Source: Tetracentron sinense (taxonomy: Eukaryota > Streptophyta > Magnoliopsida > Trochodendrales > Trochodendraceae). From it: DNA of 64,000 nucleotides. Position 1 is the first letter of the stretch. Every line of letters starts with the position of its first letter. The stretch lies in contig CM026570.1 in the NCBI GenBank assembly GCA_015143295.1, positions 22,761,250 through 22,825,249 of the forward strand, read 5' to 3'. The position numbers and the translations under genes were made by a program. The notes under the pieces were generated by a model, which searched no databases, was not told the origin of the DNA, and saw only the letters and a list, made by a program, of their open reading frames with translations. Positions 6,045 to 50,183 of this stretch are shown here, one piece after another.

Positions 6045-6128
6045 GGTCTCAGATCCTGAGCAACAGCCACATTTATGGACTCCATGATAGTAGAGGTTCT
6101 CAAGTTGTACACTCGATATGCCCTACTA

Positions 6129-7082: not shown

Positions 7083-7116
7083 ACAATTGACTTATGCTAA
7101 TTAGATTAGCTTTCAG

Positions 7117-7323: not shown

Positions 7324-7669
7324 AGCGGTGTGAATGACAAGGCATTTTAGGTCATCACATAAATGAATTTAGACTTTTGGTGAACCTTATTGTCTTTATT
7401 CATTTCATTTGTAGGAGTGACCTTCTTCTTTTTAGATCTCCTATTTTTCCTTCTCTTTTGAGAAACCTTAACATTTTGGTTTATCCTATTACCTTCTTCA
7501 TGATAAACATAAGAAGTGTCACGACCATATTAAGTACTAGAGAGTTGAGTAATTTACATCACTTCTTCACTCATACTCCTAGACTTTTTAGCTAAGGCTT
7601 GAATCTACCTTTGGAGATTCCCTTGATGTTGAGTTTGATTCCATGAACTATTTCAGGGATTTCTCCTAA

Positions 7670-9657: not shown

Positions 9658-9695
9658 AAGATCACACTTAACGGATTAACCTTCTAGGTTTACTT

Positions 9696-9707
9696 GCTTT
9701 GATACCA
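9696..9707 (-). other. Primer binding site (initiator tRNA-Met type)
   Basis: The minus strand reads TGGTATCAAAGC, one base from the usual plant copia primer site TGGTATCAGAGC, two bases inside the 5' LTR end. It fixes the element's orientation and left LTR border. Confidence 0.85.
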
Positions 9708-9709
9708 AT

Positions 9710-21787: not shown

Positions 21788-22041
21788 TTTTGTTTTTATT
21801 TTTTTGTTTTGTTTTAAATAAAGTCTCTCAAAAGGAGAGGGGGGTTTGGGAGACCCCTACTTGTTTATTAAAAATATAGAAAAGGGGGGGAGGGGGGACA
21901 TAAAACCTTACCCCTACAGACTCGAAGGCATTAGATGCTTACATTTATAAGAGTCCCTAAAGCTAATTTATCCAACTAAATCCGAGTTTGAATTTTGCTT
22001 GGGATATTATCATGAGTAGAAAAGCAACCTAAGGTCATCCT
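21788..22041 (-). mobile_element. LINE 3' end (segment 3 of 3)
   Basis: On the minus strand this holds a short 3' untranslated region ending in an A-rich tail (plus strand T-rich 21788-21816), preceded by a GTCTCCC...GAGAGACTTTATTT segment typical of plant L1-type LINE ends. It is the continuation of the RNase H segment at 47214; both junctions carry ATCCT, the gypsy target-site duplication. Confidence 0.75.
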
Positions 22042-22864
22042 TGTGAACAAGGATTTCGGTCCCGCCCACAAGGGTGCTGTTTGGCGATGTGGTTGGTTGA
22101 TTTTATGTTTAGAGTCGTCACTTATTTATTCGGTAGGGATAAGTCCCATGGTAACGGATAAGGTCTTGGTCTGCTTAGAATTCTAGGTAAGAGGTTCGGT
22201 TAAGTCCGGGAAAGGTGTTAGGCACCCCAGCACTTCCGTTTTATAATGGTTCCTTACTTACTAGGTTTAAGCCAATTGAAGTCCAGTTTTAATTAAATGT
22301 CATAGATTTAGTTTATACTAATCCAAGAAGGGAAAAACTAAACTAGGGTCAAACCCGGGGTGGATTGCCTACGTACTCACATTGGGTTGCGATCAGACCG
22401 AGCGTAGTTCTGGCACATGAGTCCGTGCCGAGGCTAAGAGAATGTTGTGTGTGCACCAAGGGTGGATTAGGGTCTAGCCGGGAGGCTAGGGGTGATTGAC
22501 CGGGTTGGTCAAGTACTTGATTATGTTTGATTGGGCTCGGTTGGCCAAGGTTGAAGCCCGGTAGGCTTAGGCCCAATAGACCGAGGATAAGTCCTGTAGA
22601 CTAGGGTTTGGCCTGGTAAGCCAAGATTGGGCCCGGTAGGTCGAGAGTGAGCCCGATAGGCTAGGGTTTAGTCTAGTAGACTATGGTTTGGCCCGATTGG
22701 TCAAGATTCGGCCCGGTAGGCCTAGGGTTGAAGCCCGGTTGGCTTAGGCCTGATAGGCCGTGAGTAAGCCCACTAGGCTTTAAGAGTAAAGTCCAAAGTC
22801 AAATTATGGTCCTTAAAAGTGATTTGATGATTTTTAGGGGTTTTTTCCAAAAATTTTCCAAGTT

Positions 22865-23175
22865 AATGGGTTAACCATGGTTAAGACATGGGTTTTAACC
22901 ATAGTTAGTCCGGATAACCATGGTTGGGCATGCTTTGAACACTCTTTTGCCCTCTTTTATTTTTCATGATTTCTAGGAATTTAACCAAGATTCAAATAGG
23001 CTTAACCATGGTTAAACCAAGTGTTAACAATGATTAAGCTCATCTAACCATGGTTAGGCATCAGCATGCGATCAAAAACACTATTTTTTTGGATTTTTCT
23101 AGGATTTTTCTAAGTTGGTTTGGTAAATTATCCATGGTTAACTCTTAATCATGGTTGAGTTAACCATGGTTAAGG
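22865..23175. repeat. TAACCATGGTTA palindrome words in gypsy LTR
   Basis: At least six perfect or near-perfect copies of the 12 bp palindrome TAACCATGGTTA lie here, with more at about 24800 and 31140 in the same LTR and matching copies in the other LTR (40660-40980, 42545-42880, 47153-47185). Confidence 0.8.
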
Positions 23176-23287
23176 CAAGGTATGGCTTGGTCAAACTTGG
23201 GGTGGGCCACAGGGGCCATGGCAGATCAGTAGGAGGGCCCCCATGGCTTGTGGATTCATTGCATGGGCCCAAAAAGTTCAAAATCCA

Positions 23288-24436
23288 CACTGTCGGCAGT
23301 CTGATTGCCGACAGTTTGGATGATTTTTGCCAAACTTTGATCCCCTGTAACTCAGGTCAGGAGATGCGTTGAGGTGCTCATGACCTATGGTTTTGAAGAG
23401 GGCCATGAGGAGAACAAAATGGGCTTAGGGTGGACCTCAGAGGTGGCCTGGTGTGGGTCCCATAGTGGGCCAAAGGGGCATTGTTAACACATATAAAATG
23501 ATGAATGTCGGCAATGGAATTGCTGACATTCTGGGCAGTTTGTGGTTTTTGTCATTTTAACCTCAGTTAAAGTTAACTACAGGTGTTGAGGTCTTCAGAT
23601 GAAGTGTAGAGGAGGTCAAGGGGATCCTACACAGGCTTTTGATGGGCCCATGATGGTCTCAGGTGGGGCCCCTAGGCCTTAAAATAGCAATGCTCAAGGG
23701 TGTCGGCACTGAGATTGCCAGCAGCCTGAAAATTTTTCAGAAATTAAATGTGCCACTGAGGGCTGCAATGGGGGTATATACAGGGGTTCCCTCATGACAT
23801 GAGGGACCCCCAGAACCCTACTGAGGTAGTGTTGTGCCCTTGGGCGGGGGGGGTTCCCCACACCTATAGACGTGGGAGAGACCCCCACAGTGGGTGTCAC
23901 CTGCGAAACAGAGAAGATAGTTCCCTGGAGTGGACCAGGGGCTCACAAGTGATTACAATGCTGTTAAAAAGGGGGTAGGGGGAAGCCCTACCCTGCTACA
24001 ACTCCGGTGATGGGGTGGTGGCCACTGGTGGCACTGTGGAGGTGCTGACGCAGGCGGTGGAGCTCGGAGAGACCAGCTGGGATGCTGCTTCGAGTTGCTG
24101 AGGCTTGCCCAGAGACCAAAGGAGAGGGCTGGGGGTCTGGAATTTGAGCAGGGGTTCGAGTTGGAGTTTTTTGGAATGGAATGGAGGTTGTGGGTGCACT
24201 GCCATCTTATAGGGGGTTCCATGGGGACACCCCTGACATTTGTACAAGGGTAGATGGGAGCCATCATGGAGTGGAGGGGGTTACTGGAGCCGGAGAGGGG
24301 CGGTGCAGGGCGTGCATTGAGCCGCACGGGGGTGGCGTGCTGCAAATATGAAAACCATTGGTGTCGGTAATGAGATTACCGACACCATCGAACCTTTGAA
24401 AATTAAGGGTGTCGGTAATCCCATTACCGACACCTA
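23288..24436. repeat. Array of five TGTCGG...CCGACA hairpins in gypsy LTR
   Basis: Hairpins lie at about 23291-23313, 23507-23529, 23700-23727, 24360-24387 and 24409-24435. Each has an 8-11 bp stem of the form GTGTCGGTAAT with its complement and a 3-7 base loop. Stem bases vary between copies, often on both sides. The same five places carry hairpins in the other LTR. Confidence 0.8.
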
Positions 24437-25080
24437 GTGGTTTTTGCCCACAGGGCCTGGCCCAGGCATGCATGCGGTACGGGAGGTTGGTTTTTTGAAT
24501 TTTTGGGCCCTTGCTTGGGCCCAAACTGAGATCCATGGATTTTGGACTTAGGGTTTAAGCCCTAAATGCCTAGGGCTTACTAGGGCTTAGACTATGCTAG
24601 GCTAGGCTTGGTTAAGGTTAGGGCTAGGCTTAGGTTTAACCATGGGTTAAGGCTTAGGGTTTGTCTAAGGTTTAACTAGAGTTAGGGTTTAACTAGGGTT
24701 GAAACCTAGGGTTTGCTAGGGTTACAACTAGGGTTTGCTTAGGGTGTTCCTAAAGTCTATTAGGGTTTGTTCTAGGGTTAAGGGGCCTTGACTGGGGATT
24801 AACCATGGTTAAGAGCATGGTTCAAAATCTCGTCGAAATATGCGAAATTTCGACGAGATATCTTGATCTCGAAGGGTCCCGAGACACCTGAACCAAAAAT
24901 AAAAAATTTTTACAATATTTCAAAAATTTCGAGCAAGATTTACGAAATTTCGTAAATCTCGACGGAAATTTGAACTCATTGTTTTGATATTTTTTCCCCA
25001 CTTTTTCGTTCAGTATCTAACGATATATGGGATATATCTCGCGATATCTCGCATATATCGTACGAAATTGTAATTTGAAA

Positions 25081-26734
25081 AAAAAAAAAAAAAAAAAAGG
25101 AGAGAACAGGGATCTCGTGACGACTGTGAGGACTGAGGCGTGAAAGAAAAAGCCTGAGAGAAGGGAATATCGCCATATGTTTTTCAGGCTTTCAGCATTT
25201 CAGAGTTGATGAGACTCCGAGTCTCTCACCAGTCAGTCAGTCACCACTCACCACCGACAATACCCGTGAGTGTGAACTGTGAAGGCGTGAAGAACTCCAT
25301 TATTTAAACAATGGTAAAACACCAAAACCCTCAAGAAAATCCATGAGAAAGATCTACGAGTAAGAAGGAGGAAAGAAGGGAAAAAAAAAGGAATTTGGCG
25401 AGGTTACATACCCGTAGCAGAGCCGCAGACGCAGAGGACCTCCTCGTCGCCGTCGCCGTCGCAGAGCTCCATCGCCGTCACCGTCTCCGTCGTCGAGTTC
25501 CATCGCCGTCGCCGTAAGTCTCTCCCCCTTCCCCTTTGGCCCTTCTCTCTGAGTTCTGAATAGTTACGAATCATTCTATAAATTTAGGGATTTTAACTTA
25601 AGAGACTGGGTTTTTACGAAATAGTGCCTTATTTATTCAATAATAACTATAATATACTTATTTATAAATATATATATTTTTTTAAAATTTTTAAGAACCT
25701 CCCTTACATAGTTACATTAATATACTTATTTATAAATAATTTTTTTTTAGAGAGACTCCTCCCTTACATTAAAATTTACACACTAATAATATTTAAAGAA
25801 ATTGTATAAAATAATATTTCATAAATTAAAATTTATTACACTTTACTTAGACGTAAATATCTTTTACTTTACTTTATTAAATAAAAACTTTATATTTAAA
25901 TTGTAATGTTTTTAACAATATGATGAAGAGTTTTATATTAGACTTAGAAGTTAGAACTTAGAAGGATTCGATTACATAAGTTTCATTAAAATAAAATTTT
26001 ATAATTTTATTTTTTTATTTAATATATATTACTTTAGTAGGCTAAACTCAACATTAGTTGATCTCTACCTTTTAATGGGTCCTACACTCCTACTTATTTG
26101 AAAGCGTTAAAAGTTTAATTCATAAAATTTTAAATCAAATAATAACATTGCTATTCACCATTACGTTTTGGCCTAGTACTTGAGATAAATGACTCTCTAA
26201 AAGATATTTAGAATTTCTACATTAGTTAAACAATTCTTAATTAGAGCATGAGTAAATATAAGGTGATATTATTTTAGTCTCATCTAAATATCTAATCAAA
26301 GTTCCAAAATTATAAAGTATAATAATAAAATAATAATATTCATTTTATATATGGAAAAATATTAACACATGTACCTTTACTAGTATTTTTAAATATATAT
26401 CTTAGTATTTTTAAGGATACATTTAATCATATATTCAGTTTAGTTTATCTCTTTTAAGGATATATTTTATTTAATATATATGTCATTGTGTTTTTTTTTA
26501 GAAAGATATATTTTATTAAATATATATCATAGTGTTATTTTTTTTTAGATAGATATATTTAATTAAATATACGTGTAGGATATCCTATTTTCTAATTAAA
26601 TAAATCGACAACAAAAATTAAATAAATCAAAAGATGATATATGTTAATAGGTATACCGTACACATAGTCAAAATTATTATTGTGCATAGAAATATATATG
26701 TACCATTTATATTGAACAATTAATATTTCAACCT
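25081..26734 (+). other. hAT 5' region: A-tract, GC-rich leader, AT-rich probable leader intron
   Basis: A run of about 20 A lies at 25079-25098. A GC-rich stretch at 25425-25512 with CGTCGC/CGCCGT repeats ends in CCGTAAGT, a possible splice donor, followed by about 1.2 kb of AT-rich sequence up to the transposase start. I infer a spliced 5' leader; no acceptor stands out. Confidence 0.4.
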
Positions 26735-29700
26735 GTGCAACCTATTTTCATTATGGCACCAGACATAGGTTGGTCGGATGGAAAACCAGTGGATGGGAAT
26801 AAAAACTGGTCGGTATGTAATTATTGTGGTAAAGTGATAAAGAGTGGGGGCGTGACTCGGCTAAAGCAACATCTTGCCGGGAGTCATCGAGATGTGTTAC
26901 CCTGTACGAGTTGTCCAGCAAAGGTTAAAAAGGCAATGAGGGAAAACATTGCCACTTGGGCTAAGAATAGGGAGGAGGCCGCCAACCGTACGAAAGAGAT
27001 TCGTGCACAATTGAGGCATCGTATAAGTCCACCACGAGTTGTGGATGAGGAAGATGATGAAGATTTAGATTGTGCTTTCCCAATTGACTGTACAGGAGTT
27101 GATGAGAGGATTGCATATCGACTGGCCTATCAGGAATCTATGTGGAGTCAGTGGGAAAAGCAGCAGGAGCGTGAATTACAGTCATCTGGTTTTAGAGGTA
27201 GTACAGGTGTAGGACCATCATGGTCGAGGGGTAACACAGAGACAAATGTTGGGAGTTAGAGGATGTTTGGACGCAGTCAGAGCGTGAGGGTCCCAAAGCC
27301 ACCACATGATTCAAGTCTTTACAGGAATCGAGACGCAAAACAGAGAAGGTTGAAAGATCTATGGAGTGGGGGAAATTTAGCGGAGATGCTTGGGACAGCT
27401 GTATCGAAGTTCTTTATCACGTGCTTGCTAATGCCGCTTCGACCCCACAGTTTAAGAACATGATCGACGAGACCGCACGGATTGGTCCAGGGGTACCGCC
27501 TCCCTCTCCATTTGAGATCACAGGAAAATATTTAGATGCAGAGGAGAAGAAGCTAAGAGATTATATTGACACCCTTAGGTCGTCATGGGAAACTTTTGGG
27601 GTTACATTTATGTGTGATGGGTGGACAGGGCCTACTAGACTTTCCATTTTTAACTTCATGGTGTATTGTGCGGGAAGGACGATATTTTGGAAGTCTGTGG
27701 ACGCATTTGATAAGATAAAGGATGCAAAGTTTATCTATGGGTTAATGAAGAGTGTTGTAGAAGAGGTGGGAAAGAAGAATGTAGTACAGGTGGTGACTGA
27801 TAACGGGAGCGCCTTTGTGAAGGCTGGGAAGATGCTTATGAAGAAGTATCATCTGTACTGGACCCCGTGCGCCGCCCATTGCATAGACTTGATACTACAG
27901 GCCATAGGAGAGAGGCCTACTGTGAAATCTGTTATTGAAGAGGCAAGGATAGTCACCAACTTCATATACAACCATGGCTGGATTCTTGCAAAGATGAGAG
28001 CCACGTGTGGTGGTGACATAGTACGGCTAGGGGCGATGCGCTTCACAACTAATTTCATTGCCTTGGAGAGTTTGTTGAACCATAAAGTTGGACTCAAGGC
28101 AATGTTCACTGATGCATCTTGGGAAGAGTATGCCGGTTGTCGCACTGTTTTGGCAAAGAGTGTTGAGGACATCATCCTCAGCAATGCATTTTGGGATAAA
28201 GCGCGTGACACGGTTGCCATACTAGAGCCTATCTATCGTGTCCTCAGGGTGGTAGACGTGGACAAGTGGCCGACTATGGGTTTTATGTATGAATTGATGC
28301 GAATTATGAAGGAGTCAATAAAGAATGTGTCTCCCCGTGGATATAAGTGGGTCCACAAGATTATCAATGATCGATGGGATAAGACACTGGAGCATCCACT
28401 TCATGCTGCTCGTAAGTTGGTACTATTATTTTTATTAGATGTTTACATTAAAATGTTATTGTGCTGTTGATAGTTTTTTTTTTTTGTATGATCACATGTC
28501 AGCATACTATTTGAACCCCAAGTACCATTACAAGAACCAATTAGGGAATCGGGACGACCTAGTCAAAGCTGTACATGACGTGTTTGAGAGGTTGGACCCA
28601 AAGTGTAAGGGGAAAGGAGAGTTTGGGAATGAGGTAAACATAAAATGTATTTGACTATAGTATATTTATGTGCATGAATGCATTCTAGTACTTTGTGGCT
28701 TGAGCATAATTAGAAAGTGTGTTTTCAAACTTTGTAGTTAGTTTGCTTCAGAGATTCGCGGGGGAGCTTTGGTAGAATTGCTGCTAAGGAGTGAAGGAGT
28801 AGGATGATGCCAGGTGAGCAACTTGTACATAAGAAAGTACATATTTAACTGCACATCAAATGTATTTATGAAACTAATGATAATCATGTTTAATTGATAG
28901 TTGATTGGTGGTCTATGTACGGGATTGACTGTTCGCACCTAAGAAAGTTGGCGACTCGCGTGCTAGCACAGAATGCTTCATCTTCGGCATGCGAGTGTAA
29001 TTGGAGTACATTTGCTCTCATCCACACAAAGCAGCGGAACCGACTCGGATACAAAAAGCTACAAAAGTTGGTATTCTGTCACTACAATATGAAGCTACGA
29101 CTCAGAGGATTGCAAAGCACGACTGGAAAAATATCGGAGCAGGATCCCTTAGACCTGATGGAAGTCGGTCATAATGATGATGAGAATAACCCACTTTCTG
29201 AGTGGGTTAGGGTCTCTGCTCTTGATGAATGGACGTCCGAACACAGTTATAGCTAGGGAAGCCACTAAGATGGGCATTGATGTGGATAGAGTCGTAGTTA
29301 CTGAAGTGGGGTCGAGCACTAGCGAAGATTCATTTGCTGAGTTGATGAGAGATCCTACGACTTCAGGTGTTGCAACCATTGCGACGGGTGGATTATCTGA
29401 TTCTCATTCTGATGATATTAGTGAGGGTGGTGATGACCACACTACTGATGATGAGAGTAGTGGAGGGCCTGGAGGCGACGACGACAATCCTGGGGATGGA
29501 GGCAACACCGAACCAAAGTTGAGCCAGAGGCCTCTTAGCCCATTCACCGGTGAGGCTTCATTTGACCATTCTACATAGGATCAGGATCATGGTACTCCAT
29601 CATCACATCCAGAAGCGAGCCAACCAATACATTATACCTCCCGTCGGTAGGGCAGTGGCAGTGGCAGGGGTAGGGGTAGGGGAAGGGGCAAGGCCAAGGC

Positions 29701-34391: not shown

Positions 34392-35384
34392 CTAAGCGTG
34401 GTATCTCTTGACTTTGTCTATGTTGATGGGCTCTAAGAGGTCTTCGTCATCCATCTGTCCGAGCTGATGGGCGCTGCTTGAGAATTTTTCTCGGACGATG
34501 TATGGACCTTCATAGTTTGGTGTGAACTTGCCCTTCGGGTCAGTGCGGTTTGGCAACACTTTTCAGAAAACCAGGTTACTAACTTCGATGCTGCGAGGCT
34601 TGACTTTCTTGTTGAATGCCCTAACCTTACACCTCTGATAAGCCTGGGAGTGATTGATGGCTTTCAGTCACCGCTCTTCAATCAAGTTCAGCTGCTCATA
34701 ACGAATTTGTGCTCATTCTGCTTCTGACAGCTCTGCTTCCATTAGCACCCGGAGTGATAAAATTTGTACTTCGATGGGGAGGACTGCTTTCATACCATTA
34801 GCCAAAGAAAATGATGTTGCCCCAGTTGAGGTTCTGATAGACATTCTGTAGGCCATGAGTGCATATGGGAGCATCTCATGCCAGATAGAGCAATTTATCG
34901 CCATCTTCTCAATGATTTTCTTCAGGTTTTTGTTTGCTGCTTCAACTACACCATTAGTCTGGGGCCTGTATGGTGTGGAATTGTGATGCTGAATTTTGAA
35001 CTTCCGGCAAAGATTAGTTATCCCCTTGTTGCAGAAATTAAGAGCATTATCTATCACAATCTCAAATGGAACTCTGTATCGACAAATGATATCCCTTCTC
35101 AGGAAGCGCTGGACCACAGAAGCCGCGACATTAGCATAAGAGGCTGCCTCAACCCATTTAGTGAAGTAATCGATTGCTACCAGGATGAATCAATGTCCGT
35201 TAGACGCTTTCGGTGTTATAGGACTGATGACGTCGATGCCCCAAGCTGAAAATAGCCAAAGAGCAGTCAAGTTGTAAAGCCTTGTCGGTGGTGCATTGAT
35301 CCTATCAGCATAGATCTGGCACTGGTGGCATTTCTGTACATGCTTACAACAGTCAGCTTTTATTATAGACCAGTAATAACCCAA
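34392..35384 (-). pseudogene. Gypsy (Tat) integrase, degenerate
   Basis: Integrase splices element DNA into the host. The zinc finger is in 35384-35190 (CCKHVQKCHQCQIYADRINAP), followed by FSAWGIDVISP with the first catalytic Asp. The core at 35117-34713 has IDNALNFCN (usually SDNGTQF; the catalytic Asp is kept), STPYRPQTNGVVEAANKN with the Glu, and AYRMSIRTSTGATSFSL. The C-terminal part to about 34392 has FTPNYEGPYIVREKF, as in Tat elements, with in-frame stops near 34670 and 34570. It directly precedes the long 3' region. Confidence 0.88.
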
Positions 35385-35497
35385 TCTAAGAATCTATTTG
35401 GATAGTATTAACCCGTTTATGTGTGGGCCGCAAGTTCCTCCGTGAGCTTCTTCGACTACCTGTGCTGCTTCACTAGAGTCAAGGCATCTAAGCCAAA

Positions 35498-36217
35498 TCA
35501 GATTCGGTGATCTTTTGTACAAGATTCCCCCTGAGAGGACGAACTGGATAGCCAGTCTTCAGATTGCTCGTCGGTCAGTTTTTGTGGCCTCGAGGGGGAA
35601 GGTCCTGTCCTCGAGGTACTGCTTATGTCTGTGTACCAAGGCTTGTTGTCAGATACTACGTCTAGCTCAAGGCAGTTGGCAGGCTGTTCCTGTTGTTGAA
35701 TATCAATCGGCCAGAGCCTTATGTCCCTAGGGATCTGAACCATGGAGGCTAGAGTGGCCAGTGCGTCGGCAAATCTTTTATGGTTCCTGGACCGATGACT
35801 GAAGGTGATTCTTCTGAACTGAACAATCAGCATGTTAAGATAGGCCAAGTACGGGACTAGACGTGCTTCTCGGATGGCCCAAGATTCATTTGCCTGACAG
35901 ATTACCAAAGACGAGTCACCGTAGACGTCGATCTCTTTAATCCCGATGTCTAGTGCTTATTTCAGACTGACTATGCATGCCTTGTATTCTGCTTCATTGT
36001 TGGAGCATCTAAATTTCAACTTGACTGAGATGGGGAGGTGTGTTCCCTTGGGTGAGATTAAGACTACTCCTACCCCATGTCCGTGACTGTTGGCAGCTCT
36101 GTCGAAGTATAACTCCCAGCTGGAGTATTCTTGTTCTTCTGCTTTCGTGTATAAGATGGCTTCATCTGGAAACTGATTATGTACTGAGACGTAGTCCTCT
36201 ACCGGACTGTGGGCCAA
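35498..36217 (-). pseudogene. Second RNase H-like domain (Tat type) and linker
   Basis: At 36217-35957, WELYFDRAANSHGHGVGVVL, then FRCSNNEAEYKACIVSL, is a ribonuclease H fold of the plant/archaeal type found as a second RNase H in Tat elements. The usual Asp is present; the segment after the Glu (NEAEYKA) breaks at a stop near 35957. Continuation at 35908-35498 (ANESWAIREARLVPYL, HRSRNHKRFADALATLASM) is the domain's end and linker to integrase. Confidence 0.82.
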
Positions 36218-36239
36218 GTGATCTACTATCGCTTGCCCC

Positions 36240-36493
36240 TTGATTGACTTTTATGTCATGTAGGTGATGTCGAATTCAGACAACATCATAAGCCATCAGG
36301 CAGTCCTTCTGGTGGTAGCTGGCTTTTCCAATAGATACTTGAGCGGGTCCATCCGGGAGATCAGAATTACCGGGTAAGATAGCAGATAGTGCCGCAGACG
36401 CTGAGTTGCCCAGACTAGTGCCAAATATGTATTTTCAAGAGGGTTGTACCTCTCTTCATACTCCAGTAGGCGTTTTCTGATGTAATAGATGGC
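36240..36493 (-). pseudogene. First RNase H domain of gypsy pol
   Basis: In minus translation, EERYNPLENTYLALVWATQR, RHYLLSYPVILISRMDPLKY and MLSEFDITYM are recognisable as the RNase H that follows gypsy RT. Stops occur at both ends (near 36494 and 36280), so it is a remnant. Confidence 0.82.
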
Positions 36494-37560
36494 TTACTCT
36501 ATTCTGCCTGTCTCGTCGTGCTGTGCTAGGACGCACCCTATGGAGGTTTCTTGCACTGAGATGTAGAGTAGTAAGGGCCCTCCTGGCGTAGGAGGCACTA
36601 ATACTAGAGGGTTGAGTAGGTATTTCTTTATCTTGTCAAAGGCTTCCTGACACTCATCTGTCCAGACTGTCGGTGTATTCTTCTTGAGAAGCTTGAAGAT
36701 TGGTTCACAGAACGGAGTGAGTTGAGAGATGAACTGGCTTATGTACTGAATTCTGACCAGGAAACCATGGATCTCCTTTTCAATCTGGGGAGCTGGCATT
36801 TCGATGATAGCCTTTGCTTTGGCGGGATCGATCTCAATGCCTCTCTTGCTGACTATGAAGCCGAAGAGCTTTCCTAATGTGGCTCCAAAGACTCATTTGG
36901 CCGGATTCAGTCTTATGCTGAACTCTTTGAGTCTGTCAAAAAGTCTTTTCAGGTCTTCCAGGTGTTGCTCGGTAGTAGGTGACTTGACGATCATATCACC
37001 CACATAGACTTCAATTGTCTTATAGATCATGTCATGAAATAGTGTCGTCATAGCGCTCTGATAGGTTGCCCCTGCATTCTTGAGTCTGAAGGACATGACC
37101 TTGTAGCAGAACGTGCTCCAAGGTGTGATGAAGGAGGTTTTCTCCATGTCTTCTTCTGCCATTCTGATTTGGTTGTATCCGGAGAAACCATCCATGAATG
37201 AGAGAGTCTCGTGCCCTATAGTATTATCGACCAGAATGTTGACGTGTGGGAGGGGAAAGTTATCTTTAGGGCTTGCCTTGTTCAGATTCCCGTAGTCAAT
37301 GTACATCCGGACTTTATCGTCCTTCTTGGGTACGGGCACAATGTTGGCCAACCACTCAGGGTAGGTTGCTACTGCCAGGAAGCCTGCATTGATCTACTTT
37401 TCTACTTCCTCTTTGACTTTCTGTGACCATTCGGGCCTCATCCGTCTCAGTTTCTACTTCACTGGTCTGACGTCGGGGTTCAGGGGCAGTCTGTGCACCA
37501 CCAGTGTCGGGTCCAGGCTGGGCATGTCTGCATACGACCAGACGAAAACATCATTGTAGC
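36494..37560 (-). pseudogene. Gypsy (Tat) reverse transcriptase, active site mutated
   Basis: In minus order: RRMRPEWSQKVKEEVEK (about 37440), WLANIVPVPKKDDKVRMYID, NLNKASPKDNFPLPHVNILV, MDGFSGYNQIRMAEEDMEKT with a catalytic Asp, FRLKNAGATYQ, then VYVGDMIVKS where YVDD is expected. The first Asp of the YVDD pair is replaced by Gly, which should abolish polymerisation. Stops near 37460 and 37397 precede the core, and the frame breaks at about 36893. The thumb region continues at 36799-36494 (FLVRIQYISQFISQL, CQEAFDKIKKYL). Confidence 0.9.
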
Positions 37561-39893: not shown

Positions 39894-42800
39894 GTTGTGA
39901 ACAAGGATTTTGGTCCCGCCCACAAGGGTGCTATTTGGCGATGTGGTTGGCTGATTTTAAGTTTAGAGTCGCCACTTATTTATTCAGTAGGGATAAGTCC
40001 CATGGTAATAGATAAGGTCTTAGTCTACTTAGAGTTCCAGGTAAGAGGTTCGGTTATATCCGAGGAAGGTGTTAGGCACCCCGACACTTCCGTTTTACAA
40101 CAGTTCCCTACTTACTAGGTTTAAGCTTATTGAAGTCAAGTTTTAATTAAATGCCGAAGATTTAGTTTATACTAATCCAAGAAAGAAAAAGCTAAAATAA
40201 GGTCGAACCCGGGTTGGGTTGCCTACGTACTCACATTGGCGTGAGATCAAACCAAGCGTAGTTCTAAAACATGAGCCCGTGCCGAGGCTAAGAGAGTGTT
40301 GTGTGTACACCAAAGGTGGCTTAGGGTCTAGCTGGGAGGCTAGGGATGATTGACCGAGTTAGTTAAATGCTTGATTATGTTTGATTGGGCCCGGTTGGTC
40401 AAGGTTGAAGCTCGATAGGATTAGGCCCGGTAGGCCGAGGATAAGTCCGGTAGACTAGGGTTTAGCTCGATAGGTCGAGATTTGGCCCGGTAGTCCGGTA
40501 GACTATGGTTAGGCCCGGTAGGCCAAGATTCGACCCGGTAGACCGTGGGTAAGCCCGATAGGCTTTAAGAGTAAGGTACAAAGTCAAATTATGGTCCTTA
40601 AAAGTGATTTGATGATTTTTAGAGATTTTTTCTAAAATTTTCCCGAGTTAATGGGGCTAACCATGGTTAAGACATGGGTTTTAACCATGATTAGTCTGAA
40701 TAACCGTGGTTGGGGTGCTTTGAACACTATTTTACCCTCTTTTATTTTCCATGATTTTTAGAAATTTAACAAAGATTCAAATGGGCTTAACCATGGTTAA
40801 ACCAAGTATTAACCATGGTTAAACTCATCTAACCATGGTTAGGCATGAGCATGCAATCAAAAACACTATTTTTCAAAATCTTTGAATTTTTTGGATTTTT
40901 AAGGATTTTTTCAAGTTGGTTTGGTGAATTAACCATGGTTAACTCTTAATCATGATTGAGTTAACCATGGTTAAGGCAAGGTATGGCTTGGTTAAACTTA
41001 GGGTAGGCCCCAAGGGCCATGGCAGATCAGTAGGAGGGCCCCCATGGGTTGTGGATCCACTACATAGGCCCAAAAAGTTTCAAATCCACACTGTCAGCAA
41101 TCTGATTGCCTACAGTTTGGATGATTTTTGCCAAACTTTGATCCCTTGTAACTCAGGTCAGGAGATGCATTGAGGTGCCCACAACCTATGATTTTCAAGA
41201 GGGCCATAAAGGGAACAAAATGGGTCTAGGGTAGACCTCAGAGGTGTCTTGGTGTGGGCCCCACAGTGTGCCAAAGTGGCACTGTCAACATACACAAAAA
41301 ATGATGAATGTCGGCAATGGAATTACCGACATTCTGGGCAGTTTGTTATTTTTATAATTTTAACCCTAGTTAAAGTTAACTACAGGTCTTCAAGTTTTCA
41401 GATGAATTGTAGAGGAGGTCAAAGGAATCCTACCCAGGCTTTTGGTGGGCCTATGATGGTCTTAGGTGGGGCCCACGAGCCTTAAAACAGCAATGCTCAG
41501 CGGTATCGACACTGATATTGCCGACACCCTGAAAACTTTTCAAAAATTAAATGTGCCACTGAGGCCTGCGATGGGGGTATATCCAGGGGTTCCCTCATGG
41601 CATGAGGGACCCCCAGAACCCTGCTGAGGTGGTGTTATGCCCTTTGGGGGGGGGGGGTTCCCCACACCTATGAAAGTGGGAGAGACCCCTACAGTGGGTG
41701 TCACCTACGAAACAAAGAAGATAGTCCCCTGGTGTGGATAAGGGGCTCACAAGCGATTACAATGCTGTTAAAAAGGGGGTAGGGGGAAGCCCTACCCTGC
41801 TACAACTCTGGTGATGGGGTGGTGGCCACTGTTGGCGTTGTGGAGGTGTTGACGCAGGCGGTGAAGCTCGGAGAGACGAGCTGGGATGCTGCTTCGAGTT
41901 GTTGAGGCTTGCCTAGAGACCTAAGGAGAGGGCTAAGGGTCTTAAATTTGAGCAGGGGTTCAAGTTGGAGTTTTTTGGAATGGAATGAAGGCTGTGGGTG
42001 CACTGCCATCTTATAGGGGAGTCCCATAGGGACACCCCTAGCATTTGTACAAGGGTAGATGGGAGCCATCATGTAGTGGAGGGGGTTACTGGAGCCAGAG
42101 AGGGGTGGTGCAGGGCGTGCACTGAGCTGTAGGGGGAGTGGGGTGTTGCAAATATGAAAACCAGTGGTGTCAGTAATGTGATTACCGACACCATCGAACC
42201 TTTGAGAATTAAGGGTGTCGGTAATCCCATTACCGACACCTAGCGATTTTTGCCCACAAGGCCTGGCCCAGGCATCCACGTAGTACGGGAGGCTGGTTTT
42301 TTGAATTTTTGGGCCCTTGCTTGGGCCTGATAGGTTGATAGTGAGCCCAATGGGCTAGAGTTTAGTCAGCTAGACTATGGTTAGGCCCGGTAGGCGTAGG
42401 GTTGAAGCCTGATAGGCTTAGGCTCGGTAGGCCGTGAGTGAGCCTGCTAGGCTTTAAGAGTACGGTCCAAAGTAAAATTATGGTCCTTAAAAGTGATTTG
42501 ATGATTTTTAGGGGTTTTTTCTAAAATTTTCCCAAGTTAATGGGGCTAACCATGATTAAGACATGGGTTTTAACCATGATTAGTCCGGATAACCGTGGTT
42601 GGGCGTGCTTTGAACACTTTTTTATCCTCTTTTATTTTTCTATGATTTTTGGGAATTTAACCAAGATTCAAATGGGCTTAACCATGGTTAAACCAAGTGT
42701 TAACCATGATTAAGCTCATCTAACCATGGTTAGGCATCAGCATGCGATCAAAAACACCATTTTTCAAAGTTTTAGAATTTTTTGGATTTTTAAGGATTTT

Positions 42801-44557
42801 TCTAGATTTTTCTAAGTTGGTTTGGTGAATTCACCATAGGTAACTCTTAATCATGGTTGAGTTAACCATGGTTAAGGCAAGGTTGGCTTGGTCAAACTTG
42901 GGGTGGGCCACAGGGGCCATGGCAGATCAGTAAGAGGGCCCCCATGGGCTATGGATCCACTGCATGGGCCCAAAAAGTTCAAAATCCACACTATCGGCAG
43001 TCTGATTGCCGACAGTTTGGATGATTTTTGCCAAACTTTGATCCCCTGTAACTCAGGTCAGGAGATGCGTTGAGGGGCCCACGACCAATGGTTTTGAAGA
43101 GGGTCATGAGGGGAATAAAATGGGCGGGTGACTCAGGTGCTTTGGGCCCCCTGAGCCGGGCACCTTAACAACATAAAGTGAGCAGCAATGGGATTGTGAC
43201 ATTTGGCATTTGTTTTTATCATTTTAACCTTAGTTAAAGTTAACTACAGGTCTTGAGGTCTTTAGATGAAGTGTAGAGGAGGTCAAGGAGATCCTACCTA
43301 GGCTTTTGGTGGGCCCATGATGGTCTCAGGTGGGGCCCCTAGGCCTTAAAACATCAATGCTCAGTGGTGTCGGCACTGAGATTGCCGGCACCCTGAAAAT
43401 TTTTCAGAAATTAAATGTGCCACTGGGGGCTGCATTGGGGGTATATCCAGGGGTTCCCTTATGGCATGAGGGACCCCTAGAACCTGCTGAGGTGGTGTTG
43501 TGCCCTTGGGGGTGGTTCCCCACACCTATGGAAGTGGGAGAGACCCCCACAGTGGGTGTCACCTGCGAAACAGAGAAGATAGTCCCCAGGGGTGGACCAG
43601 GGCCTCATAAGTGATTACAATGCTGTTAAAAAGGGGGTAGGGGGAAGCCCTACCCTGCTACAACTCCAGTGTCGGGGTGGTGGCCACTGGTGGCATTGTG
43701 GAGGTGTTGACGCTGGCGGTAGAGCTCGGAGAGACCAGCTGGGATGCTGCTTCGAGTTGCTGAGGCTTGCCTAGAGACCTAAGGAGAGGGTTGGGGGTCT
43801 AGAATTTGAGAAGGGGTTCGAGTTGGAGTTTTTTGGAATGGAATGGAGGTTGTGGGTGCACTGCTATCTTATAGGGGGTCCCATGGGGACACCCTTGACA
43901 TTTTTACAATGGAGTGGAGGGGGTTACTGGAGCCAGAGAGGGGTGGTGTAGGGCGTGCACTGAGCTACAGGAGGGGTGGCGTACTGCAAATATGAAAACC
44001 ATTGGTGTCGGTTATAAGAATACCGACACCATCGAACCTTTGAAATGTAGAACCCCAGATCTTTATGGCATGTATTAAAAGCCTTAATATTGTTTTCTTA
44101 AGCTTTGGGTGTTTATAGGTGTTTGGAATGAAGAAAGTAAGAGTATAAAATATTCTTAAGTATTAACAAGGGTTATGCCTTGGCATACCCTCAACTTTGA
44201 AAAGCTCTAGTTCGCTCATAGTTGATCAAAATCAAGCGATTTTTAAATTTTTGGAAAGGTATTTGAACCTTCTTCGAGGTTTGTGTTTACCATTTTTCTT
44301 AATTTTGAGTCGGGGTTGCGTCAAAAGTTTGATTTCCAATGTCGGGACTGTTAAAAATCTGGGCTGTCGAAACCCATTTACAGACCAGTCAGCTTTGGAG
44401 CCATTTTTTGGTAAAGTAAAACTCAAAATTTGGAGTTGTACAAAACATGAAATTTGTTCCCCTTTGAATGATGAATCCAACGCAAGTTGAATAGTCAAAA
44501 TCCAATAAGGGAGTCAAAAGTTATGGCCGATTTACTGAAGTACGTTTTTGCAGAAAA

Positions 44558-44666
44558 ACTCGCTCGAGCGAGATCCAAACCCGCTCGAGCGAGATTGATC
44601 AAAAACGAGTTTTTGAGGCTAGGGAGTAACCCGCTCGAGCGAGATGGAAGCCCGCTCGAGCGAGAT
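44558..44666. promoter_or_regulatory. Palindrome array, CTCGAG type, in LTR-T copy 1
   Basis: Four copies of CGCTCGAGCGAG at about 44561, 44582, 44632 and 44652. The array ends about 43 bp upstream of the TATATA box. Confidence 0.85.
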
Positions 44667-45659
44667 TGCCCAGAAATGTTTTTTTTAGGTTTTGCCACTA
44701 GCCTAACACTATATACACCCAATTTTTCGGGGGTCTAAGGTTCCTAACACTTAGAGAGAGACTTTTTGAGAGAAAAAGAAGGAAAAATAGGTTTCCAAAG
44801 GGGGATTGTGTTTGAAACCAAAGAGAAGATCGAATCATCACTTCTCAAAGCTTCCACAAGCTTGAACCTTCTTCCTTGAGCGTGGATCTCCATTTCCAAG
44901 CTCAAGCTCGTGTTAGATCATCCTTCCACACTAAGATTTGATCCTTGCAAGGTAAGTGAAACTATTATCTAGCTTTGCTATTTTGCAATAGTACAAGTAT
45001 GATTTTGAATGAGATGTAAGTAAAACCACTATTTAGCTTTGTTATCATACTAAGATTAAATGAATGATCAAATATGTGATTTAGCTTGCTAGGATGCAAA
45101 TGTAAAGATATGATTTGGGGTAAAAATGGAAAATGAGCAAATGATTGAATAGGGATTTGAGACTTGGGGGTTTTTCAATAAAATGATTAATATGGCTATA
45201 TGTGTAAGCAAACATTATTATCTCTAAATAAAGCATGATTTTAATTATGATGTGATGAAAATGACATGATCTTGGTGATATAATGCAATGAATGAAATAT
45301 GCTATGTTTCTCGAATTTTTCAAGTATACCATAATGAGAACATGTCTTATATGAATTGTTAAGGCCTTCCATATGTATATGATAAGGCTCACAAGCACTC
45401 CACGCACGATAAATTTCATATGATCGAGTTTACGCATAAGCATGCATTTTAAGAATTATGAACAAGGGTTTTTTCAAAGGAAATTCACAAGAAAGAAGCA
45501 TAAGCATTTGACAAAGCCAAACTTTGGGTTGGTGTCTCTAAGATCGATTACTTCAAGAACTCATAAGAATTTCATAAGTATAAGATCTTGCATTTATCTA
45601 TAAGCATCATAAGCTCACAAGAATAAGCTCACAATAACTCGTAAGAACTTGTAAGAACT

Positions 45660-46030
45660 CGTAAGCTAGTGGGATGACCCGAGGAGCGCCACTAACCATC
45701 TGATATTCCCAAGCTACTTTGGGTGGGTGTTTAGTGGGATGGTACAAAGGGCGCCACTAGTAAAGAACTTGTTAGAACTTGTAAGAGTTGGAAGAACGAC
45801 TTGTAAGGACTCATAAGCTAGTGGAACGGCCCGAGGAGCGCCACTAACCATCTGATATTCTCAAGCTACTTTGGGTGGGTGTTTAGTGGGATGGTACAAA
45901 GGGTGCCACTAGGAAAGAACTTGTAAGAACTCGTAAGCTAGTGGGACGGCCGAGGAGTGCCACTAACCATCTGATATTCTCAAGCTACTTTGGGTGGATG
46001 TTTAGTGGGATGGTACGAAGGGCGCCACTA
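45660..46030 (+). repeat. Three-copy tandem repeat in LTR-T copy 1
   Basis: Units containing GCTAGTGGGA, CCACTAACCATCTGATATTC and TTTAGTGGGATGGTAC begin at 45665, 45817 and 45937 (spacings 152 and 120 bp). Short AAGAACTCGTAAGCTCAT-like repeats follow to about 46200. Confidence 0.88.
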
Positions 46031-46377
46031 GTGAAGAACTCATAAGAACTCGTATGCACATAAGAAAAGTTATAAGAACTCGAAAGCTCATAAGAACTCG
46101 TAAGCTCATAAGAAAGACTATAAGAACTCGAAAGCTTACAAGAACTCATAAGAACACACGAGACTCACAAGTATTTATAAGAACTCATAAGCATGCATAA
46201 GACAATGTTTTCCACGAAAAGAACAGGTTTTAAGAAAGGTTCTCCACGACAGGATTTTAAGCATGAATTTTACGATTAATGTTCCCTTACGCAATTATAC
46301 GTAATATTTTGATTATGATAGCACTCTTAGCTAGTAGTTTTGGCTCGCTGAGTATTTCATGCTCAGCCGTACATATT

Positions 46378-46521
46378 ATGTCGGCAGGTACACGGGCTCC
46401 CTTTGACATCTGTGATCAAGGGCCTTGGATAGAGGAAGATTATGGCGAGGAGGAGCCATATGTGGAGCCTCAGGAGGAGGCAAGGGACTTAGACCACTGG
46501 CCCTTTCAGGGTGATTATTGA
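46378..46521 (+). CDS. LTR-encoded small acidic protein, copy 1 (47 aa, unknown function)
   Basis: I do not recognise this family. The ORF starts ATG TCG GCA, is rich in Glu, Asp, Pro and aromatic residues, and ends WPFQGDY then TGA. A core segment PWIEEDYGEEEPYVEP is nearly the same in the second LTR-T (48004-48153). The two copies differ mainly by synonymous third-position changes and in-frame indels. A conserved CTCAG, a plausible splice acceptor (46361-46366), lies 11 bases before the ATG, and a GTAAGT donor follows the first leader part (44952). I infer a short leader-encoded protein made from spliced element RNA. The ORF could also be read from an in-frame ATG at 46279, but similarity starts to look protein-like only from 46378. 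Confidence 0.45.
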   Translation: MSAGTRAPFDICDQGPWIEEDYGEEEPYVEPQEEARDLDHWPFQGDY

Positions 46522-47213
46522 GAGAGAGAGGTCATTACATTTTGTATTTTGATGAGTAGGCCTGTCTACTCTTATTTTGGGATTTTGTATTGTACAAACT
46601 TGGAATACAAATTATAAATAGAAAAAGAAATTTTTGGATTACGCTTCCGCACTGTATTATGATTTCGTTATGTCTTGCCTTGTGTATATTACAAGATGGG
46701 TTGCCAGGTTAAGTATTGTCACACCTAAAGTATCCTTTAACTCGTAGGGGGAATTTTGGGGCATAACATGAAAATTAAGGGTGTTGGTAATCCCATTACC
46801 GACACCTAGTGGTTTTTGCCCATAGGGCCTAGCCCAGGCATGCACGCGGTACGAGAGGTTGGTTTTTTGAATTTTTGGGCCCTTGCTTGGGCCCAAACCG
46901 AGATCCATGGATTTTAGACTTAGGGCTTAAGCCCTAAATGCCTAGGGCTTGGACTAAGCTAGGCTAGGTTAGGGCTAGGCTTGGTTAAGGTTAGGGCTAG
47001 GCTTAGGTTTAACCATGGGTTAAGGCTTAACTAGAGTTAGGGTTTAACTAGGGTTGAAACCTAGGGTTTGCTAGGGTTACAACTAGGGTTTGCCTAGGGT
47101 GTTCCTAAAGTCTATTAGGGTTTGTTCTAGGGTTAAGGGGCCTTGACTGGGATTAACCATGGTTAAGTGGTTTAACCATGGTTAGCTAGGGGTGTAAAAA
47201 TTGGGTGCTTACA

Positions 47214-47751
47214 ATCCTTTCACTCCCATTGTTAGCAAATTCATCAACCACTGCATTAGCTTCACGATAGATGTGTTGAAGAGAGAAATCATTTGTCATA
47301 ATAATCTTAATCTTCTTATCCCAATACCAAGATTTCAAAGAACCTGAAGTTGTTCCTTTCCACGCATCTACCAGGCTTTTAGAATCAGATTCAATAATCA
47401 CATTATGAATATTATGATGCTTACAAAGATCTAAACCATCTAAAAGAACTCTTGTTTCTGCAACATAGTTAGAGCAAATACCGTAATGGGAGAAGAAAAA
47501 AGCAACAAGATCACCCTTATGATCTCTAATAATACCACCTCCTCCTGCATTACCAGGATTGCGTATGGAAGCACCATCCACATTCAATTTGAACTTAGAT
47601 CGAGAAGGATAGTGCCATTTAACAAGAACCACTCGGTCCCTCCTAAGAGAGGGAGTTGTAGTAGGAAATAAGGGACCGATGAGCCAAAAACTTTTACTCT
47701 CATAGAAGGAATTAATATCACACACCTTTTTTGTGATGAAGGCAATGAGGG
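47214..47751 (-). pseudogene. LINE RNase H domain (segment 2 of 3)
   Basis: The minus-strand piece encodes a plant non-LTR RNase H (RVT_3 type): FKLNVDGASIRNPGNAGGGG with the first Asp, NYVAETRVLLDGLDLC with the Glu, IIESDSKSLVDAW with the next Asp and REANAVVDEFAN near the end. These are in the expected DEDD order. The gypsy element cut it at its C-terminus (ATCCT), and the solo LTR-T cut it from its upstream part (GAGGG at 47747-47751 and 50179-50183). The catalytic residues look intact, but the gene is in three pieces. Confidence 0.88.
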
Positions 47752-48003
47752 TGTAACACCCAAAAATCCCCCTAGGAGTTAGGTGAGACTTTAGATGTGA
47801 CTATCCAAACCTGGCAAACCATCCTGTAAAATATACAAGGCATAATCATAGTGGAAACAAAATCAATGCGGAAGTGTGAAAAAAAAATTTCTTTTCTATA
47901 CATTAACGGTATTCCAAGTTTTATACATCAACATGACTAATGTAAGAGTGGACATGCCCACCCATCAAAATATAAAATATAAAACTCTCTTTCTCTCTCT
48001 CAC

Positions 48004-48153
48004 TTAGTAATCACCCTGATAGGGCCAACTATCTAAGTCTCTTGCCTCCACTTGAGGTACTCCTGCTGGCTCTATATATGGCTCCTCCTCACCATAGTCC
48101 TCCTCGACCCAAGGATTAGGAGTGCAAATGTCGAAGGGTGCATCTGCCGACAT
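48004..48153 (-). CDS. LTR-encoded small acidic protein, copy 2 (49 aa, unknown function)
   Basis: The counterpart of the ORF at 46378-46521. It starts ATG TCG GCA at 48153 and ends WPYQGDY then TAA. Compared with copy 1 by hand, about 12 codons differ synonymously and 9 non-synonymously (three of those in one block; I/V, V/I and F/Y are conservative). Indels of 6 and 12 bases keep the frame. A possible acceptor CTCAG precedes the ATG by 12 bases, and the leader donor lies at 49151, so a putative intron is 48166-49151. I do not recognise the protein and cannot exclude chance preservation. Confidence 0.45.
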   Translation of the reverse strand: MSADAPFDICTPNPWVEEDYGEEEPYIEPAGVPQVEARDLDSWPYQGDY

Positions 48154-48456
48154 CAAAATGTACGGCTGAGTATTGAAACACTCAGCAAGTACATGCTACT
48201 AGCTAACAGTGATATAATATAATTTATGGCATACAGGAAATTTTAACAATGCATTCATGAGCATGCATGAAAACCCCAGTGCAAAACCTCATGTAAATCA
48301 TGTGTACAAAATTCATAGCTAGTACTTGAAATTATCTTTTCGTATTTCAAAACTTGCTTATCGTGCTTAAAATCTTATTCTTGGCTTGTTCTTGTCATGT
48401 AAGAATCATTGTCTTATCTTGTTCTTGTTTGAATCATACTTCTCTTGTTATGCTTG

Positions 48457-48600
48457 TCTTGTGAGCCACATGTTAATGCCCTTGAAGCAACTTGTGAGCC
48501 ACATGTTAATGCCCTTGAAGCAACTTGTGAGCCAGGTATGTAAATACCCTTCATCGAAATTCTTGAAAGCAACTTGTGAGCCGGGTATGTAAATATCCTT
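48457..48600 (-). repeat. Short tandem repeats in LTR-T copy 2
   Basis: Four units containing AACTTGTGAGCC, the first two identical over about 33 bp (GCCACATGTTAATGCCCTTG), the later two with GGTATGTAAATA. They occupy the putative leader intron, as do the unrelated tandem repeats of copy 1. Confidence 0.8.
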
Positions 48601-49455
48601 CAACGAATAGAAAAGGCACACCAACATCCTTGATTTCTTGCCTTGTTTTCTTGAAGCTAGATTTGGCATATCTTTGGATATGCCATATCATTGACCAACC
48701 CAAAGTTTGGCTATCTTTTGTTTCGTGAATCACATGTCTTGTTCTTAGGTTGTTTTTCATATACTTGTACTTAGAAAACTCGATCATGCATAAATGTTTG
48801 TGCATAGTGCTTAATGAACATCATAGTAACATGTGAATACTTAAAGGAAATCACATATGGCATTTAAAACATTTCTATAGTCATGGGAAAACTTTAAAGT
48901 ATCTTCGCATTCATGGAAAACTTGAAACATAGAGATCATGACAATAGGCATCATAAAATTGATATACATTACATAGATCATGGTTACTTAGCCTATTACA
49001 TCCATATCATACTTCATAGTTCATAAAATTTAGGGAAATCTTAGAAGATTAGGAATTTAGAAACACATGTGAGCAATTTCAACATCACATACTTGAAAAC
49101 CTAGGTTTGAGATCTAGATTATCTCTCAGTTAACTAGAAGGGTGTACTTACCATGCAAAGACTAAATCTTAGCTTGAAATGATGATTGGACATGAACTTG
49201 AGCTTGGAAATAGAGATCTACGCTTGAAGAAGAAGATCCAAGCTTGTGGAATCTTGGGAAATAAGGATTCAAGCTCCTCATTGATCTCACAAGAAAACCC
49301 CTTTTGGAAAACCTAGCTTTATCCCTTCTCCTCTCAAAATATGTTTCTCAAAGTGTTAAAATCCTTAAACCCCCAAAATTTGGGTATTTATAGGGTTAGG
49401 GTTGTCAAAATCACGTTTGTACCCTTTAAAATCCCATTTTTCGCGTCCCTGCAGG

Positions 49456-49582
49456 CAAACGTCGACGTTTGGGCCATACGTCAACGTTTGGGTTACAAAC
49501 GTCGATGTTTGGGATATTTGAGCATTCTGTTTGTCCCCAAACATCGACGTTTTCATGGCCCTCTGGTGCAAATGTCGATGTC
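49456..49582. promoter_or_regulatory. Palindrome array, GTCGAC type, in LTR-T copy 2
   Basis: About five words of the form AAACGTCGACGTTT, perfect at 49458-49471 and with one or two changes elsewhere. The array begins about 63 bp upstream (minus orientation) of TATAAATA. Confidence 0.8.
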
Positions 49583-50183
49583 TAGTTGCTCTGTCTGGCT
49601 TGTGTTTTTCCCACTTTGGTATTTCGACCATAACTTTTGACTCACATATTATCATTTGATGATTCAACTTGCGTTGGGCTCTTCATTCAAAGGGAAACTA
49701 TTTTGTATCTAATGGATAAATCCAAATTCTGAGTTCTTAATGGTCTAAATGAGCTCTAAAACTGACTGGTCTGTGATGGATTTCAGTAGAACAGAATTTC
49801 AGTAGACTAGACTTTGGAAATCTAACATTTAACCTCTCTTCGACTAAAAATTAAGCTGGAAAAATGATAAACATGAACATTGAAGAGGGTTTCGATATCT
49901 TTCTAATGGCTCAAAAATCATTCGATTCCGATCATTGGTGACAAAACTAGAGTTCCCTAAAGTTGAGGGTATGTTACCAAACACCCATAAACTTAAGCAA
50001 ACATTCTTAAGGCTTTAATATCTGCCATAACACATCATCCACCCAAAATATATCAAAAACAAGGTTCTCATTATCATTGATAACCATTCAAGGTATTACA
50101 ATAGGCTTTAAGTCTTAGACACTATTCATAGCACTATTTACCATGCCATGCCATTCCATCAAAATCCGGGGTTCTACAGAGGG

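Follow-up and report, generated by a model that had tools for sequence, protein, structure and literature searches.

Two LTRs with related open reading frames

The LTRs of retrotransposons are commonly regarded as promoters and terminators rather than genes. The window analysed here, a stretch of 64,000 nucleotides of contig CM026570.1 of Tetracentron sinense, raises the question of whether an LTR may also hold a protein-coding gene, since two LTRs in it, A and B, contain short acidic open reading frames (ORFs) that a sequence-only reading had taken to be kept by selection. Translation agreed with that description: the ORFs of 47 and 49 codons have a common start, core and end, both terminating in QGDY, they differ in the stop codon (TGA/TAA), and the indels of 6 and 12 bases that separate them keep the frame. 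The two LTRs had also been called complete, and indeed both are solo LTRs, flanked by the target duplications TGAAA (44041-44045 and 46769-46773) for LTR A and GAGGG (47747-47751 and 50179-50183) for LTR B, each with its ORF near the 3' end (Table 1). The first 0.9 kb of the LTRs can be aligned at 66% identity and the last 0.45 kb at 77%, and the middle hardly aligns. The length of the ORFs is not significant by itself, because 1.35 chance ORFs of at least 47 aa are expected on the sense strand of such an LTR. In copy A the open frame begins at an upstream ATG and covers 80 codons, so that the 47 codons are only the part common with B; the longer frame was rejected as a gene, as it is not common to B.

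Table 1. Positions of the ORFs, LTRs and candidate expression signals in the window (a slash marks a putative splice junction).
Feature	Position	Strand	Description
Solo LTR A	44046-46768	+	2,723 bp; begins TGTAGAACCCC, ends GGGGCATAACA; perfect 5-bp target duplication
TATA1-like box of LTR A (TATATAC)	44710-44716	+	aligned with CTATAAATACCC of LTR B; from sequence only
Putative non-coding exon 1 of LTR A	44740-44951	+	212 nt, no ATG; limits from TATA plus about 30 nt and from the donor
5' splice donor-like AAG/GTAAGT of LTR A	44952-44957	+	also in B, in the third copy and in the S-type LTR of L105
Hairpin upstream of ORF A	46347-46367	+	3' arm CTCAG (46362-46366) is the proposed acceptor; from sequence
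ORF A	46378-46521	+	47 aa, acidic, stop TGA; from translation
TATA2-like box TATAAATAG	46613-46621	+	downstream of ORF A
Solo LTR B	47752-50178	-	2,427 bp; perfect 5-bp target duplication
ORF B	48153-48004	-	49 aa, acidic, stop TAA; from translation
Hairpin upstream of ORF B	48165-48186	-	from sequence
5' splice donor-like GTAAGT of LTR B	49146-49151	-	from sequence
TATA1 of LTR B (TATAAAT)	49386-49392	-	from sequence
Third LTR copy, part (donor region)	10871-11115	-	cut by a copia element

Codon differences between the two ORFs

The earlier count of about 12 synonymous against 9 non-synonymous codon differences was nearly right, as our recount over 45 aligned codons gave 11 and 9. The differences at codon positions 1, 2 and 3 number 5, 7 and 16, respectively. 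By the NG86 method pS is 0.573, pN 0.124 and dN/dS 0.125, and the GY94 model, run with three frequency models, gave omega values of 0.125-0.203 (likelihood ratio P 0.0004-0.0011). Placing the same substitutions at random produced so strong a pattern with P 0.00035-0.00064. Both indels inside the ORF are divisible by 3, compared with 2 of 24 outside it (Fisher P 0.018), the latter comprising 0 of 9 in the rest of the LTR 3' part and 2 of 15 in the 5' part, with an 8-base gap at the stop counted as outside.

Codon positions 1 and 2 differ at 12 of 90 sites, against 304 of 890 in the 5' LTR (P 3e-5) and 76 of 311 in the close flanks (P 0.03), and codon position 3 (16 of 45) is not distinguishable from the 5' LTR (P 0.87) or the close flanks (P 0.14). 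In total the ORF is little above its surroundings, with an identity of 0.797 compared with 0.779 upstream and 0.749 downstream. When 504 overlapping windows were scanned, similar scores were obtained for the ORF's antisense shadow and for a stop-containing window downstream of the ORF. Of 81,174 simulated neutral LTR pairs, 1,644 had in common an ORF of 40 or more codons from ATG to stop, and 3 had one that was also as codon-biased as that of the A-B pair.

Copies of the ORF in the genome

The host genome (1.16 Gb), the only one searched, gave as first-look candidates 2,297 places with ORF A as query, 2,363 with ORF B, 2,847 with the LTR A 3' flank and 1,717 with an S-type ORF (this type is described below); these are candidates not confirmed singly, and 40 places of each list were scored. 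A protein search, in which 150 places were scored, gave about 103 without an internal stop (a count of the printed rows), which proves little on open frames since these places were chosen by protein similarity. For a set free of this bias we took all 40 places from the search with the LTR A 3' flank and dropped one (L096) that had no ORF left. The remaining 39 copies comprised 24 of A-type and 15 of a third subfamily, S, which shares the start, the core and the RDLD-WP end (an example is MSAGSFDICNPEPWVEEEYEEERDPPIPMQSQEDRDLDRWPYLEYC in L097). It was the LTR A flank alone that brought up subfamily S, so that the ORF played no part in its collection. Among these 39 copies, a stop was found in 12 and a frameshift in 8.

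After 18 of 103 loci had been dropped as duplicates (16 from the same place, 2 from other places with identical sequence), the final set contained 84 unique copies, 27 of A-type, 42 of B-type and 15 of S-type. The B-type copies were gathered by ORF DNA or protein, a choice that favours intact ORFs. Such bias hardly touches the A-S comparison, as all 15 S-type and 24 of the 27 A-type copies were collected by the flank. The spacing of CGTAC and ATG varies by single bases from one subfamily to another, while A, B and S differ after the ATG by gaps whose lengths are divisible by 3.

Selection between subfamilies and apparent neutrality after insertion

The comparison of subfamilies over the 84 copies gave pS 0.595 and pN 0.153 for A-B, 0.956 and 0.302 for A-S, and 0.828 and 0.294 for B-S. 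Synonymous sites are therefore near saturation between subfamilies (pS 0.60-0.96) at a pN of 0.15-0.30, and permutation with one pair for each comparison gave P 0.00075 for A-B, 0.0001 for A-S and 0.0034 for B-S. A chance ORF is rejected by these comparisons. Within the types, dN/dS was 0.485 for A, 0.283 for B and 0.276 for S. The variation at codon positions 1, 2 and 3 shows next to no third-position excess within A-type (0.053, 0.054 and 0.062) and an excess within B (0.063, 0.070 and 0.128) and S (0.038, 0.042 and 0.068). The omega estimated by IQ-TREE, which mixes selected and dead branches, was 0.58 for 39 copies and 0.56 for all 84 (2 delta lnL against omega 1 of 13.1 and 39.2).

Five pairs of LTRs, out of eight candidates of which six were tried and five computed, were assigned to single elements by their strand and a spacing of 6.4-10.2 kb, and probably represent the two LTRs of one insertion each. 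These pairs showed pS 0.048 and pN 0.070, a ratio of 1.46 that is not distinguishable from neutrality (P 0.34). Constraint between subfamilies together with neutral two-LTR pairs indicates that the ORF is selected in active lineages and decays after insertion. Purifying selection has thus acted on the frame of 46-50 codons with its fixed ATG in those lineages that went on transposing, whereas the frame looks neutral once inserted, and a coding sequence in an LTR with this history has the character of an LTR-encoded accessory gene.

The proposal that the ORF is kept as coding sequence is therefore strengthened by the further copies, including a subfamily gathered without the ORF. The sequence-only reading had, however, named dN/dS near 1 over many copies, lost start codons and frameshifts as signs against itself, and here the outcome is divided. 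The ratio is low between subfamilies and the ATG is kept in 36 of the 39 flank-collected copies and lost in 3, but the two-LTR pairs exceed 1 and only 19 of the 39 keep both the ATG and an open frame. We hold that such losses are the fate of a dead insertion and that the comparison between subfamilies is the proper test.

The carrier element

The PBS TGGTATCAGAG directly follows the LTR end in 10 of the 52 distinct places represented by L001-L068; L002 has it in another context and two more matches are inexact. Where it is missing, the place may hold a solo LTR, a 3' LTR or a decayed copy. As the PBS follows the LTR end, the ORF is in sense orientation, with its start about 390-450 nt ahead of the PBS. 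The opposite orientation, in which LTR B read on the plus strand begins TGTAACACCC, was rejected because the PBS is found at the other end, in the sense of the ORF. In seven loci gag begins 311-321 nt after the PBS, and between the PBS and gag of L104 there is no frame of 100 codons.

The internal region of the B-type element L104 has Pfam matches, in order, to gag, zinc knuckle, protease, RT and RNase H, and that of the S-type element L105 to zinc knuckle, protease, RT, RNase H, integrase and chromodomain, both with frames broken by stops. Taken across these two elements the order is that of gypsy elements, gag-protease-RT-RNase H-integrase. The chromodomain (PF00385, E 1e-5, with SH3_Tf2-1) was tested in this one S-type element. 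For Del/Tekay elements, the text excerpted from PMC4029996 gives LTRs of 1,143-4,831 bp and a type A U5 end with GGG at -8 to -10. The lengths of both LTR A and LTR B fall in this range and both have GGG at these positions; they differ from each other at -6, a position that the same excerpt calls conserved. The LTR lengths and ends, the domains and the chromodomain of L105 fit a large family of Tekay/Del-like chromoviruses as the carrier.

The predicted protein

Across copies the peptide has 46-50 aa, and both window peptides have a pI of 4.05 and a net charge of about -12. The most constant alignment columns include F9 (81/84), D10 (79/84), I11 (83/84), W17 (76/77), E20 (81/84) and Y22 (84/84), and also L44 (81/83), D45 (82/84) and W47 (72/74), where losses of W are under-counted because stop codons were excluded. 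These columns belong to a peptide with two aromatic-acidic blocks, PW-EE-Y-EEE and RDLD-WP, joined by a linker whose length varies between subfamilies. The last four residues also vary, from QGDY in the window copies of A and B to LEYC or LDYC in S copies. AlphaFold models of the two window peptides have a mean pLDDT of 65.8 and contain only a 3-residue helix and no fold. No homologue was found in collections of proteins, viral contigs and prokaryote contigs, which are expected to contain little plant DNA, and the ORF peptides had no match in Pfam or PDB.

A peptide kept by selection while the element is active suggests a small helper protein as one of the element's products. The product would most likely be an unstructured accessory protein that acts in trans and binds a partner through its two blocks, and a host transcription or RNA-handling factor would be our first guess for this partner.

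Expression signals and possible modes of action

Candidate signals for expression are found in all three subfamilies. The box that we call TATA1 has the context CCCTATAAATACCC in LTR B (TATA at LTR position 787) and GCCTATAAATAG in the S-type LTR of L105, with CTATATACACCC at the aligned place in LTR A. In A, B and S alike, the ORF follows this box at a distance of 1.2-1.7 kb. A donor-like GTAAGT follows at 166-212 nt from the putative start in A, B and S and is kept in 16 of the 21 places that cover it. The predicted exon 1 is free of ATGs in A and S and contains three in B, and the stretch from the donor to the ORF has 46 in A, 48 in B and 41 in S, where it is incomplete. Exon 1 looks non-coding, being poor in ATGs and having gaps that break the frame. 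The stretch of 1.0-1.4 kb between donor and ORF is fast-changing and in copy A contains tandem repeats, located within the putative intron at 45643-46164 as three copies of about 139 nt followed by short units.

The downstream end is marked by a CTCAG 10-12 nt ahead of the ATG, with an exact match in 22 of the 27 A-type, 25 of the 42 B-type and 11 of the 15 S-type copies. This motif is the 3' arm of a hairpin, GCTGAG...CTCAGC, that precedes ORF A, and as an acceptor it looks weak beside the one before gag. The latter, YAG/G after a T-rich stretch at 8-12 nt before the gag start codon, occurs in eight of the nine loci listed, in the form TTGTTCTCAG/GA or a close variant (loci L003-L058 with PBS; about 345-371 in L104). 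An acceptor-like site just before gag suggests that Gag may be translated from a spliced message.

From these signals we propose that RNA polymerase II would start at TATA1 in the LTR and that the AUG-poor exon 1 would be joined from the GTAAGT donor to an acceptor at or near the CTCAG upstream of the ORF. Splicing would then remove about 1.0-1.4 kb full of AUGs, leaving that of the ORF as the first, and joining of the same donor to the acceptor before gag would produce a Gag message without the ORF. The three AUGs in exon 1 of copy B count against this model. That the LTR carries a small accessory gene, expressed from a spliced LTR transcript as an acidic protein acting in trans, is the reading we favour, at a probability of roughly 0.55.

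The ORF may instead act in cis, as an upstream ORF with a conserved peptide that stalls or releases ribosomes while still nascent and so tunes Gag translation or a switch between translation and packaging. It is indeed upstream of gag on the same strand, with a hairpin just before its AUG, and the conserved upstream ORFs of plants are also short with a conserved peptide, although generally below 100 nt according to PMC2527020. An arrest peptide fixed relative to the stop would, however, hardly fit a linker, a distance from the first block to the stop and a set of last four residues that all vary between subfamilies, and the strong acceptor before gag points to a Gag RNA that may lack the ORF. 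We consider an action in cis possible, if rather doubtful.

An accessory ORF located in U3 and made from the genome 3' end or from a separate short RNA, as LTR-encoded viral genes are, has to be weighed as well, with TATA2 as the genomic promoter. The TATA2-like box (TATA[AT]A) follows the ORF in 22 of the 27 A-type copies and in 11 of the 15 S-type ones and could be the main promoter, and the barley element BARE has two promoters that give separate RNA pools (PMC3735527, in excerpt). In B-type copies, however, any TATA[AT]A is found in the 36-nt stretch at this place in 22 of 41, but TATA1 in 17 of the 18 places covering it, and we regard the U3 location as unlikely. The claim that the ORF lies in the leader part of the LTR is accordingly plausible as to the TATA1 upstream in A, B and S and is called into question by the TATA2-like box just downstream in many copies.

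The ORF could also be the coding exon of a longer spliced product that is entered at GGCAG/G in the first codons, the ATG being then part of the acceptor region. Many copies do have AG/G at codons 3-4, but the predicted exon 1 lacks an ATG in A and S and has alignment gaps that are not multiples of 3, and the ATG itself is retained in all three subfamilies and in nearly all flank-collected copies, which makes this explanation very improbable. A constraint on DNA or RNA only (promoter or structural elements), with the codon pattern arising by chance, could draw on the A-B flanks, about as conserved in total as the ORF, and on the few other scan windows that score alike, but it is largely refuted by the three between-subfamily comparisons at near-saturated synonymous sites, the in-frame indels and the 3 neutral simulations in 81,174, and only a very small chance is left to it.

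Relation to known accessory ORFs

Coming back to the favoured reading of an accessory gene in the LTR, the closest known counterparts in the texts excerpted are the 5' aORFs of Tekay chromoviruses, which are internal to the element: those of sunflower Tekay group 2 and the ORF0 of Retrosat2, RIRE3 and RIRE8 (PMC11728184, PMC3485330). Like the present ORF, they are accessory sense-strand frames upstream of gag in Tekay/Del-type elements and are conserved across copies, and the sunflower aORF is described in these excerpts as largely disordered, just as the window peptides lack a predicted fold. By the same descriptions, however, they lie upstream of the gag-pol ORF and outside the LTR, between the 5' LTR and gag, whereas the ORF studied here is within the LTR, and the sunflower aORF is a proline-rich protein of 400 aa with a nuclear signal (PMC11728184), in contrast to a strongly acidic peptide of 46-50 aa. 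A review of additional ORFs also places them in the internal region, as far as its excerpt goes (PMC7264820).

A protein that is encoded in an LTR and under selection is known from MMTV sag, in the account excerpted from PMC11998498; this is a type II membrane superantigen of an animal retrovirus, and no sequence kinship with the present ORF is expected. Plant upstream ORFs with a conserved peptide, in the excerpt of PMC2527020, share the short upstream frame, and differ from the present ORF in that the latter resides in a retrotransposon LTR and has two blocks with a variable linker. BARE, a Ty1/copia element, likewise has two TATA boxes in one LTR, with spliced and unspliced RNA pools; the excerpt of PMC3735527 mentions no LTR ORF and draws the alternatively spliced intron within the gag-pol frame. 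Among the titles and abstracts listed by our literature search, which left most subscription journals outside, there was no conserved microprotein internal to the LTR of a plant element.

If the ORF is translated, a very common repeat, with thousands of first-look candidates, carries a gene in its LTRs, and full elements then hold two copies of it and solo LTRs retain one. The favoured reading, if true, would add a small regulator to the Tekay-type life cycle and provide a test case for how Ty3/gypsy elements split their RNA between translation and packaging. Comparison of pS and pN between LTR subfamilies, on copies collected by their flanks, could be used to screen for other LTR genes.

Mosaic structure of A and S copies

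We aligned nine of the 27 A-type and eight of the 15 S-type copies, chosen by hand (the S-type among L077-L102), and compared the two types in 20-column windows. Identity between them is 82-92% ahead of the ORF and across its first codons, falls to 34-70% in the remainder of the ORF and is 46-79% for about 80 columns beyond it; further downstream it is 88-97%, with 74% in the last LTR window. The simplest reading of this alignment is that a diverged segment bearing the ORF may have been swapped between LTR lineages by template switching. Cassette swapping of diverged versions is what a protein responding to a changing host factor would lead one to expect. The fuller proposal, of a microprotein encoded in the LTR and acting in trans, made through alternative leader splicing and with diverged versions of its gene swapped as a cassette between LTRs, is put forward tentatively, as we think it somewhat less probable than not.

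Other elements in the window

LTR A is inserted in what is probably an LTR of another gypsy-type element, and relatives of its site without the insertion are found at 42162-42234 and 24356-24428. Long repeats at 22041-24813 and 39895-47167 flank gypsy-type RT, RNase H and integrase frames on the minus strand (34713-37393) and are probably the LTRs of that element, the right-hand one having a 1.9-kb internal duplication and hosting solo LTR A. LTR B sits in a LINE-like RNase H frame (PF13456 in the ORF at 47186-47800). Frames for a BED zinc finger and DUF659 at 26690-28470 presumably are the remnant of a hAT-type transposase. The part of a third LTR copy in Table 1 and an open ORF 1.4 kb to the left of the window (L022) probably belong to one copy, as judged from place and strand. 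The copia element at 1-10875, with LTR-like repeats at 1-651 and 10223-10875 and with gag and RVT_2 on the minus strand, apparently inserted into this third copy of the ORF-bearing LTR.
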